Of a DNA stretch of 63,642 nucleotides, positions 29,011 to 33,045 are shown in pieces. Under the pieces are notes generated by a model, which saw only the letters and a list, made by a program, of their open reading frames with translations, was not told where the DNA came from and did no database searches. Made by a program: the position numbers and the translations under genes. Position 1 is the stretch's first letter, and every line of letters begins with the position of its first letter. Source of the stretch: Clostridiales bacterium DTU053 (GTDB lineage Bacteria; Bacillota; Clostridia; Oscillospirales; Acutalibacteraceae); contig LFSO01000021.1 in assembly GCA_001512765.1 (NCBI GenBank), positions 1 through 63,642 on the forward strand. The letters are read 5' to 3'.

Positions 29011-29084
29011 TGCGGAATTGTGTAACGGTAGCACGGCAGACTCTGACTCTGTTTGTCTGGGTTCGAATCCTAGTTCCGCAGCCA
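29011..29084 (+). tRNA. tRNA-Gln (anticodon CTG), CCA encoded
   Basis: The acceptor arm TGCGGAA/TTCCGCA (including the U1-A72 pair typical of tRNA-Gln), D arm GTGT/GCAC, anticodon arm GCAGA-CTCTGAC-TCTGT with anticodon CTG, and T arm with TTCGAAT fold into a full cloverleaf. Discriminator G and CCA are encoded. It reads CAG codons. In this organism it may be charged with Glu and corrected by GatCAB. It stands alone with its own promoter and terminator. Confidence 0.97.
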
Positions 29085-30036: not shown

Positions 30037-30207
30037 ATTTCTTCCCCCTTTTTATTCCAGTTTATATTCTCAAAAGTCAAATATCAAGTAAATTTTATGG
30101 AATTATGGCAGATTTTCTCTTGCCGCCTGTTTTTATAAGCAGGATAAGGGACTTTACAAGAGCAATAATAATTTTGCAACTAATTTTTTGGCGGCGGGGT
30201 GAAGGCA

Positions 30208-32112
30208 ATGAACATACGGAAATTTAAATTTTCAAAGCTGTTTTCACTTGTCTTTTTCCTCTGCCTTGCAATTGTTTTCTTAATTCTAAGTCCTGTCGCG
30301 AAGGTCTATAATGTGGAAGGCTATGAAATAGACACCGAAAATTTAAAGCCCATACAAAAGGGCTACAAAACCGCCCCAATCCCCGTATTCATGGGCAGTG
30401 ACAAGGATTTACTCCCCAAATCCTTGTCAAGCTATATATCGCTGAATGAGAAGATTTACTACAAAAGCCCCTCAATGACCGTATTTACCGATAAGAACGA
30501 AAAGCAGTCCGTAATCGCCGCAGCCGTAAAAAGCAGCAGCGGCGGCGCATACGGCACTGGCGAAATAGTTGTAAAGAAAAGTGAGGACAACGGTCTTACA
30601 TGGGACAGCGAGCGCACAGTATTTAAACTCCCCGTAAGACAAAAACCGAATTCAAACAAGGACTATGCCGCCGCATTCAATTCAGAGTGTCTGATTTTCT
30701 CCGCCGACGGCGAGATTATTCTGATGACTATAATGTACCCCGAAAGCAAGGGTCCCGAGGACAAAACATGGATTGAAAACGCGGATGTCTACAAGCAAAT
30801 TGGCGATGTTTTATATCCCGTGCTTTACGACGAGCCTTCAAGCGTGGGCAAAACCATAAGCGCGGCAGTGCCCCAGAACGAATACACAGTCCGCGAGGAC
30901 GGCTTTGTCTACACCCCCGATGGCAAGAAAACTGCCTATTATCTCCCTCAGTTTCATTCCCCCGAATACGCCTACCAAACAATGGGCGATATGTACTACT
31001 GCGTGGGAGAGCCTGATTATAAGACCACCCCTCCGCCCCTTTTGCCCGAATATAAGCCGGGTACCGAGCGGGACATTTATGTGGGGAACATTTATCTCAG
31101 CGAGAATAAGCCGAGTTTCAGTCTTAATGAGCCCATACCGGTTACAAAGAAGAAAAACGGCGGCATTGTGGAAACCTCCCCGGCGCCTTTGCGCGCTCCC
31201 GTTACAGCAAATATTTTCGTTCTGAAAAGCCGCGACGGTGGAGAGAGCTTTTCCCAGCCCGTCAATATCACCTATCAGATTAAAGGCAAGGCGGACAAGG
31301 GTATTCTCAGCTTTGCCTCAAGCTCCGCTGTCGTTCTCAAAAACCAAGTTTATTACGACAAGAACGGCAGAATAATAGTGTTTTTCAAAAACTCCGACGG
31401 CGTCTTTGCCGTTTACAGCGACAATAACGCCGATATGTTCAAAAGAAGGCAGGTGGTGCATTTCAGAAATGCTGAGTTTTCCGCCTGCTTTGAGGACGAG
31501 GAAGGCAGCTTAATAAGCCTTTCCTCAAAAAAGAAGAGCAACAAAGTAAAAGCTTTTGAGAGCATAGACAGCGGGGTCAAATGGAACAGAGACGAGCCGG
31601 CGGGAATCCCGGCAGACGGCGCCGCCTTGTCGGCGCTGAGGCTCCCCGTAGACTACGGCAAGGAAAATAGCTTCAAGTACGCAGACGGAATGGAGCTGGG
31701 CAGGGAGTATATCATAGTCGCCCACAGCATAAAAGACTCGGGCAAAGACACTGCTGTTCTCACCATAGGAGCTTTAAATCCCAAGGACAGAATAAGCTGG
31801 AATTCCGAGAAAAAACTGAATGACGATGAATTCTTCTCCCCGAACGAAAAGTACAACAGCTTTATCGGTCAAAGCTCTCTAACCGTTCTTGAAAACGGCA
31901 ATATCGGTATTCTTTACGAATCATCGCCGGCCTCACTCATCCTTTTCAGACAGTTCAGCCTCGAGTGGATAATAAACGGCGCGTCGCCAAAAATAAAAAC
32001 CGAAACCCCTCCGCTAATAATTCTTTTAATGCTCGCGATAGGTCTTTCAATTATCCTTTTAACTCTGTACGCGGCGGTCAAAGCCCTGCTAAAAAAGTGC
32101 TCAAGCAAATAG
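30208..32112 (+). CDS. Membrane-anchored sialidase-fold (BNR/Asp-box) protein, degenerate active site
   Basis: The 634-residue product has an N-terminal membrane helix (about 10-32) and a C-terminal one (about 603-625), so the central part is held outside the cell. Asp-box-like repeats typical of sialidase propellers are visible: KKSEDNGLTWD, KSRDGGESFS and ESIDSGVKWN, and the last blade reads IGILYESSPASLILFRQFSLEW as in GH33. The sialidase motif around the first catalytic Arg (RIP) is YYKSPSMTVF here, so that Arg is Lys. Activity is doubtful. The ATG at 30208 is 6 bp after GGGGTG; a GTG at 30199 is less likely. Confidence 0.75.
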   Translation: MNIRKFKFSKLFSLVFFLCLAIVFLILSPVAKVYNVEGYEIDTENLKPIQKGYKTAPIPVFMGSDKDLLPKSLSSYISLNEKIYYKSPSMTVFTDKNEKQSVIAAAVKSSSGGAYGTGEIVVKKSEDNGLTWDSERTVFKLPVRQKPNSNKDYAAAFNSECLIFSADGEIILMTIMYPESKGPEDKTWIENADVYKQIGDVLYPVLYDEPSSVGKTISAAVPQNEYTVREDGFVYTPDGKKTAYYLPQFHSPEYAYQTMGDMYYCVGEPDYKTTPPPLLPEYKPGTERDIYVGNIYLSENKPSFSLNEPIPVTKKKNGGIVETSPAPLRAPVTANIFVLKSRDGGESFSQPVNITYQIKGKADKGILSFASSSAVVLKNQVYYDKNGRIIVFFKNSDGVFAVYSDNNADMFKRRQVVHFRNAEFSACFEDEEGSLISLSSKKKSNKVKAFESIDSGVKWNRDEPAGIPADGAALSALRLPVDYGKENSFKYADGMELGREYIIVAHSIKDSGKDTAVLTIGALNPKDRISWNSEKKLNDDEFFSPNEKYNSFIGQSSLTVLENGNIGILYESSPASLILFRQFSLEWIINGASPKIKTETPPLIILLMLAIGLSIILLTLYAAVKALLKKCSSK

Positions 32113-32142
32113 ACCCTCCGAGAAACGGAGGGTCTTAAATTT
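32111..32142 (+). terminator. Rho-independent terminator
   Basis: AGACCCTCCG pairs with CGGAGGGTCT around AGAAA, then TAAATTTT. Confidence 0.8.
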
Positions 32143-32269
32143 TGGACTTGAAATTATAAAGGCACTTAAATTCATTCAGTGTATAAACTGTATATAGACA
32201 GGCAAATTGTTTAAATCTTTATTTTTATACTCTTACCACTCGAATTCTACATTGGAAGGGATGAAATAT

Positions 32270-32941
32270 ATGAAAACAAGTGAAGGACTTATAGAATTCG
32301 TAAAATCTAAAATTGGGTGTCCCTATTGGTATGGTACATTTGGAAATATAGCATCCGAATCGCTCCTTAAGTATAAATCTCAGCAATATCCCAAGCATTA
32401 TACGGAGAACAGAGAGGCTACTTATCGTTCCCAATTCGGCAAGCAGGTTTTCGACTGTTCGGGTTTGGTTAAGGCATATCTGTGGACTGACGAAAACGGT
32501 AAAATCGTATACAACAGCGCTCAGGATTTAAGCGCAAACGGTTTTTACAAGAACTGCCCCGTATCGGGAACTATTTCAACCATGCCGGACCTGCCCGGAC
32601 TCCTTGTGTTTATGCCAGGTCACATGGGAGTTTATATCGGCAATGGCGAAGTTGTTGAGGCAAGAGGCTTCAGCTACGGAGTCGTAAAAACCGAGCTGCT
32701 TAAACGCCCGTGGAAGAACTGGGGCGTATGTCCGTGGATACAGTACAAGGGCACAGGCGACATCGATGTGGACAATAAGCTTACCGCCAAAGACGCAAGA
32801 CTTGCTCTCAGAATCGTGGCGGGACTTGAAAAGGCAGACGCGGTCAAAAAACTGCTTGCGGATATTGACGGCGACGGAAAAGTAACCGCTAAGGACGCCC
32901 GCATGATTTTGCAAAAGGTTGCGGGTCTTTTGGAAGAGTAA
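32270..32941 (+). CDS. Endolysin-type NlpC/P60 peptidase fused to a dockerin-like module
   Basis: Residues 1-160 of this 223-residue protein resemble the NlpC/P60 domain of clostridial phage endolysins: GCPYWYGTFG, the long YPKHYT segment, FDCSGLVKAYLW (nucleophile C63), SAQDLSANGFY, PGHMGVYIGNGEVVEARG (H118) and RPWKNWGVCPW. Such enzymes cut gamma-D-Glu-diamino acid bonds in peptidoglycan peptides. Residues about 161-222 are two duplicated Ca-binding repeats (DIDVDNKLTAKDARLAL and DIDGDGKVTAKDARMIL), the layout of a type I dockerin. A signal peptide is absent when starting at the ATG at 32270, which lies 9 bp after GGAAGGG. No holin or other phage gene is near. Confidence 0.85.
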   Translation: MKTSEGLIEFVKSKIGCPYWYGTFGNIASESLLKYKSQQYPKHYTENREATYRSQFGKQVFDCSGLVKAYLWTDENGKIVYNSAQDLSANGFYKNCPVSGTISTMPDLPGLLVFMPGHMGVYIGNGEVVEARGFSYGVVKTELLKRPWKNWGVCPWIQYKGTGDIDVDNKLTAKDARLALRIVAGLEKADAVKKLLADIDGDGKVTAKDARMILQKVAGLLEE

Positions 32942-32960
32942 CGGTAAATTAAAACCCATT

Positions 32961-32989
32961 AAAAACAGCCGAGTCTTTCGGCTGTTTTT
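32961..32989 (+). terminator. Rho-independent terminator
   Basis: AAAAACAGCCGA pairs with TCGGCTGTTTTT around GTCTT, then GTTTTTG. Confidence 0.9.
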
Positions 32990-33045
32990 GTTTTTGCGCA
33001 GAGCAAAAAACCGCGATAAAAACTTTGAGCTTTTTGTCCTTTTTA

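Follow-up and report, generated by a model that had tools for sequence, protein, structure and literature searches.

What would a bacterium gain from an enzyme of the phage endolysin type that ends in a dockerin and bears no export signal? Endolysins are aimed by wall-binding domains. In the window analysed here, a stretch of 63,642 nucleotides of contig LFSO01000021.1 from the uncultured Clostridiales bacterium DTU053, the open reading frame at 32270..32941 (223 amino acids, stop included in the coordinates) combines an NlpC/P60 endopeptidase domain with a C-terminal type I dockerin. Its ATG (32270) follows a Shine-Dalgarno-like GGAAGGG (32254..32260) at a distance of 9 nt, and all features of the gene and the hairpins that flank it are given for the forward strand. 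The phage-endolysin-type catalytic domain, as delimited by Pfam, homologue alignment and a phylogenetic tree, comprises residues 1-160 (32270..32749) and matches NLPC_P60 (PF00877) with an E value of 4.4e-8 and 33.5 bits against a cut-off of 23. Its residues C63 (32456-32458), H118 (32621-32623) and E130 (32657-32659) are invariant in all six homologues aligned, and we infer that E130 is the third catalytic residue. By profile and conserved residues the protein is thus predicted to be an NlpC/P60 (C40-type) endopeptidase with putative peptidoglycan-cleaving activity.

The dockerin spans residues 163-216 (32756..32917; Dockerin_1, PF00404, E value 7.6e-6, 26.5 bits against a cut-off of 22.9). 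Sequence and repeat comparison place its two 12-residue Ca-binding loops, DIDVDNKLTAKD and DIDGDGKVTAKD, at residues 164-175 (32759..32794) and 198-209 (32861..32896), respectively, each with aspartate at positions 1, 3, 5 and 12. A comparison of 48 dockerin repeats from the source genome and its sister species yielded the common pattern D-x-[DN]-x-[DN]-G-K-x-x-A-x-D-A-R-x-x-L-R-x-x-A-K-L, which the focal repeat matches apart from two departures from the consensus of the genome, a K at repeat position 11 and a G instead of K at position 22. Since the AlphaFold model of the single focal sequence is unusable (pLDDT 38), the dockerin fold is assigned from sequence. No signal peptide is found in the protein: its top N-terminal mean hydropathy is 0.89, and values of 0.6-1.1 are shared by its orthologue, its paralogue and an M23 peptidase-dockerin protein, whereas eight dockerin proteins of the same genome that do bear signals range from 2.5 to 3.5. 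An alternative TTG start at 32207 does not supply a signal peptide either, as the resulting extension is not hydrophobic and the start is absent in the sister species. The first-pass annotation, which had described an NlpC/P60 domain fused to a dockerin pair without a signal peptide, is therefore borne out by the Pfam scores, the intact Ca loops and the low hydropathy.

Where does the catalytic domain come from? Although PHROGs returned only a tail-protein match for this part of the protein, protein searches found the domain in 17 phage records at 38-43% identity, one of them annotated as an endolysin; these matches include Dulem virus 39 (41%) and a Christensenellales phage endolysin (38%). 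The domain is also present in 53 IMG/VR loci. When a maximum-likelihood tree is built, the dockerin lysins are nested within a clade of IMG/VR lysins (support 95/88, 97/86 and 96/83). The focal protein and its orthologue group with viral L062, on which genes for a phage DNA polymerase and a terminase lie, and the two paralogues with viral L061, on which a terminase large subunit gene is found. Judged by sequence, the focal catalytic domain is a member of a phage endolysin family. It is 61% identical to that of viral L060 and 58% identical to that of its own paralogue. These relationships hint that each of the two dockerin lysins may go back to a phage capture and a dockerin gain of its own, with the proviso that contigs are sparsely sampled and that trees of single genes are weak grounds for such a claim.

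Genome surveys recovered the domain from 47 of 394 members of the order and from 17 of 391 of the class. Inspected by eye, the tails are SH3-like, PG-binding, SPOR, glycosidase-like or SLH, and the tails of viral relatives are SH3 or PG-binding, with a dockerin in none of those inspected. The dockerin of the focal protein hence sits where wall-binding modules usually sit, much as had been noted from the DNA sequence at the outset. In two proteins of the class survey (L158 and L170) this place is taken by SLH-like tails, a further module for surface attachment. In-frame TGA codons of some relatives were considered as recoding and dismissed, because the stop, where visible, lies at or just past the end of the lysin domain. 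With the endolysins of Clostridia phages, such as Christensenellales phage NatCom_6392 and Dulem virus 39, the focal protein shares the catalytic family (38-61% identity), the lack of a signal and a C-terminal targeting module. It differs from them in the nature of that module, which in the phage proteins is SH3, PG-binding or of other kinds and in none of the viral tails inspected a dockerin.

Is the gene still part of a phage? Its neighbours are predicted by Pfam to encode an alpha/beta hydrolase, a BNR-type membrane protein, a PHP protein and an aminotransferase, and terminator-like hairpins lie on both sides, one between the upstream BNR gene and the lysin-dockerin gene (32111..32135) and one 3' of the latter (32960..32990). 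The gene thus looks monocistronic, and, given the flanking host genes and the two hairpins, no holin adjoins it. The hydrolase-BNR-lysin block is conserved in the sister species. Its BNR/sialidase-like protein (window 30199-32112) has a signal-like N-terminus and a C-terminal membrane stretch and adjoins the lysin gene in both species. A tRNA-Gln(CTG) gene at window 29011-29084, about 3.2 kb upstream of the lysin gene, is possibly an old integration site; no integrase was seen among the scanned neighbours, and a plasmid search gave no match.

The sister-species orthologue (G001:C80) shares 86% identity with the focal protein and is likewise devoid of a signal peptide. Comparison of the two genes gives a dN of 0.088 and a dS of about 1.8, and hence a dN/dS of about 0.05, and the paralogues of the two species differ by a dN of 0.165 at a dS of about 1.8; both genes are under purifying selection. 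These values bear on the idea that we are looking at the lysin of a decaying prophage that acquired a dockerin by chance and has no function, for which one could cite the phage relatives and the fact that no phage or holin gene stands alongside the focal gene. A dN/dS of this size over the whole gene contradicts decay and argues for a functional gene rather than a chance product. Moreover, the orthologue keeps the same upstream genes, an intact triad and intact Ca ligands, and a similar fusion has been maintained in four species of another family (see below). We therefore regard decay as extremely improbable.

A second NlpC-dockerin gene of the source genome (G000:C27:4974-5639) lies on another contig and in very different company. 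It is part of a cassette (G000:C27:2553-5954, L046) that encodes a sigma-70 region 4 protein, two tail-like proteins with weak PHROG matches, the lysin-dockerin protein and, after it, a holin-like protein, the last of which matches phage hemolysin/XhlA-type families (phrog_937) and is a holin candidate. In the sister species the corresponding cassette (G001:C2:91-3475, L049) has an identical gene order and adjoins the same rhamnosidase-like gene. In the genera g15 (G015, L052) and g48 (G048, L053) cassettes of this kind lie at other chromosomal sites, their lysins having SH3-like tails and being accompanied by holin-like proteins. No further phage genes were noticed around the cassettes in the stretches read, and host genes flank that of the paralogue; "domesticated" is a fitting term for this sigma/tail-like/lysin/holin arrangement. 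The earlier statement that no holin is present consequently applies to the focal neighbourhood but not to the genome. Conversely, the suspicion of a domesticated lysin is now well supported, since the catalytic domain is that of a phage lysin family and the paralogue resides in a cassette conserved between two species.

The cassette also invites a quite different explanation, namely a Type 10-like secretion or programmed lysis system in which its holin and the dockerin lysins open the walls of a subpopulation and release cytoplasmic proteins, the dockerin keeping the cut local at cohesin sites. Type 10 secretion systems use a holin and an endolysin, and the C. difficile PaLoc (tcdR-tcdE-tcdL) presents a sigma-holin-endolysin-remnant arrangement (PMC12150058). 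Like the PaLoc, the cassette keeps a phage-origin sigma factor, a holin (here of the XhlA/hemolysin type) and an endolysin on the chromosome, at the same place in two species, and its lysins lack signal peptides, as this explanation would have it. It differs from the PaLoc in that no cargo gene is seen, that tail-like genes are present and that the lysin bears a dockerin, and secretion is putative. Moreover, the focal gene is unlinked to the cassette and has no holin of its own, and the arrangement would be equally compatible with an ordinary remnant. On this evidence we consider a secretion or lysis system unlikely.

Does the cell possess anything for the dockerin to bind? Dockerins are numerous in non-cellulolytic Clostridia, whose genomes frequently encode a single cohesin or lack one altogether. 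The docking suggested by the first-pass annotation hinged on a cohesin being encoded somewhere in the genome. At the default threshold of Pfam (PF00963) the source genome contains none, whereas 55 of 80 genomes of the family have at least one above the cut-off. A relaxed threshold pointed to a single place, G000:C11:61490, at 15.7-16.8 bits against a cut-off of 24.1. The open reading frame there (G000:C11:61364-62047; L050:17365-18048) encodes a signal peptide, one domain, a TTKAPATTK linker, the motif IPKTG, a membrane stretch and KKKK. Its domain scores 33.0 bits with a family cohesin profile, the best of 10,000 shuffles reaching 12.3, and a profile built from this protein and its relatives finds a ScaB cohesin as its best match in the PDB (E value 1.1e-7). 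The predicted model of the domain (pLDDT about 80 over the strands) has cohesins as its best Foldseek matches, with an E value of 6e-6 and a probability of 1.0. Relatives of the protein exceed the Pfam cut-off, and its sister-species orthologue shares 74% identity with it. Profile, shuffle control and predicted fold concur that this protein is a cohesin, so that the search did turn up one wall-anchored candidate, albeit below the threshold of Pfam.

A second protein with an IPKTG tail suggests that this motif is a sorting signal, and sortases are encoded in the source genome, clustered with two dockerin genes. That surface-display cluster (L155:1514-9216, G000:C9) comprises two sortase-like genes, one assigned by Pfam and one by resemblance, followed by genes for a SpoIID-dockerin and a second dockerin protein. 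At least 15 dockerin domains are encoded in the genome, and the C11 cohesin is the probable partner of these, the focal one included. Then again, co-occurrence of dockerins and a cohesin is to be expected anyway, as cohesins are common in the family. The scanned dockerin proteins are wall hydrolases (two M23, GH25 and SpoIID types), a phosphatase, and lipase-like, Ig-like and leucine-rich proteins, with no cellulase among them. A multi-cohesin scaffoldin combined with cellulolytic dockerin enzymes, which would define a cellulosome, was not found; there is one single-cohesin protein. An M23 peptidase-dockerin protein (G000:C22:615-1253, minus strand; L047) has no signal peptide. It was considered as a conserved third lysin and set aside, since the sister species yielded no match over its full length. 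At a distance of about 8 kb from the cohesin gene, L050:8117-9784 encodes an SH3-GH25 lysozyme with a signal peptide and a degenerate dockerin-like C-terminus.

The presence of one anchored cohesin and at least 15 dockerin domains makes for a surface display system, and other displayed proteins are wall enzymes as well (again the two M23, GH25 and SpoIID types). One might therefore picture the focal enzyme as a bystander weapon or wall scavenger, which leaves dying cells, is attached by its dockerin to surviving kin and is used against neighbours. The solitary position of the gene between terminator-like hairpins would be in accord with this, but both release and action on other species are conjectural, and we think this role distinctly unlikely. 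Alternatively, the EF-hand pair may serve solely as a Ca switch or stabiliser, or bind a partner other than cohesin. In R. albus strains dozens of dockerins face one cohesin or none (PMC4081043), so dockerins can lack cohesin partners, and the deviations of the focal repeats at positions 11 and 22 point in the same direction. However, the focal repeats have the signature DAR..LR..A.L in common with the secreted dockerins of the source genome, and a cohesin is present in that genome, which together make a non-docking role rather unlikely.

Known systems of this kind resemble the present one in part. Sortase-anchored single cohesins, as exemplified by R. flavefaciens ScaE and by non-cellulosomal systems, likewise combine one cohesin on a wall-anchored protein with many dockerin proteins. 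The source genome differs in that the clients include several wall hydrolases, some of them signal-less lysins, and no cellulase among those scanned. The closest published protein that we found is RflaF_05439 of Ruminococcus flavefaciens, with a signal peptide, two NlpC/P60 modules and an X-dockerin (PMC3573020). Its dockerin is reported there, as an unpublished result, to bind ScaE, a single cohesin anchored by sortase. RflaF_05439 shares with the focal protein the NlpC/P60 module and the C-terminal dockerin, but differs in its signal peptide, its two catalytic modules, its X module and its being part of a cellulosome, and it has not been reported as a phage-type lysin or as holin-linked. In the literature on dockerins and endolysins, as represented by titles and abstract openings with subscription journals largely uncovered, no natural fusion of the two is described.

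Is the fusion then a peculiarity of one genus? The first survey of tails suggested so, and this had to be given up. Four species of the genus g151 in the unrelated family f19 (L177-L180) encode NlpC/P60-dockerin lysins with two loops and no signal peptide, and G087 (L181) encodes a lysin with a one-loop half-dockerin followed by further tail sequence. The dockerin signature of the g151 proteins (ANDYNMAR, ARDYLLIRR) differs from the focal one. In two of the four species (G174 and G210) the gene lies between those for a phage-type transcriptional activator and a short tail-like open reading frame. The occurrence of dockerins in the g151 lysins as well as in the focal lineage indicates that the wall-attachment position was taken by a dockerin more than once.

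Going by the focal genome, a genome with a lysin-dockerin would be expected to hold a surface-anchored cohesin too. We checked one g151 genome, G174, which was scanned nearly whole (about 2.03 Mb, overlaps counted). The open reading frame ranked first by a home-made seven-sequence cohesin profile, on contig C16, encodes a signal peptide, a domain, an acidic linker, a membrane stretch and KKK. With this profile the candidate could not be separated from shuffles, so the claim rests on Pfam, which scores the protein as a cohesin at 31.0 bits, over the cut-off. About a dozen open reading frames of G174 encode dockerins. The survey for the same fusion elsewhere has thus produced four species of another family and, in the one genome checked, an anchored cohesin. 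As cohesins are common, we take this single positive outcome as support, not proof.

Taken together, we are inclined to the reading, which we rate as somewhat probable on balance, that the focal protein is a host-adopted phage endolysin that would be released by a holin or by lysis and tethered to the wall through a cohesin. Its catalytic domain would stem from the Clostridia phage lysin family and, as an NlpC/P60 cysteine endopeptidase, would be expected to target peptidoglycan stem peptides, with the dockerin in place of the SH3, PG-binding or SLH wall-binding tail of other family members. The enzyme, having no signal peptide, would be kept in the cytoplasm and would exit through the holin of the sister cassette on the other contig or by cell lysis, export through so distant a holin being conjecture since no holin or phage gene lies beside the focal gene. 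Outside the cell the Ca-loaded dockerin would plug into the only cohesin protein of the species, which is of the sortase type, and the enzyme would thereby be held on the wall of its own species, so that collateral killing is limited or wall opening focused. What counts against this docking model is that the cohesin is outside the wall whereas the lysin acts first from inside. Docking would therefore matter only after exit, which makes it more plausible that the enzyme is held to the species' own cells or debris, or displayed on survivors, than that it is aimed from inside.

Could this be a general device? More tentatively, and with doubts that outweigh our confidence, we suggest that Clostridia may have repeatedly converted a phage lysis module (a sigma factor or activator, a tail-like protein, a lysin and sometimes a holin) into a host device for lysis or secretion that addresses itself: a dockerin, by latching onto the one cohesin that the cell displays on its surface, would take the place of the lysin's wall-binding domain and so of carbohydrate recognition. 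The chromosomal sigma/tail/lysin/holin cassette of gut and digester Clostridia may be a secretion or lysis device. In the lysins described here the dockerin would aim an endolysin by protein-protein recognition, a solution that two families seem to have reached separately. This offers a testable role for the numerous dockerins of non-cellulolytic Clostridia and would provide a natural design for tethering a lytic enzyme to a surface in a reversible, Ca-dependent manner.
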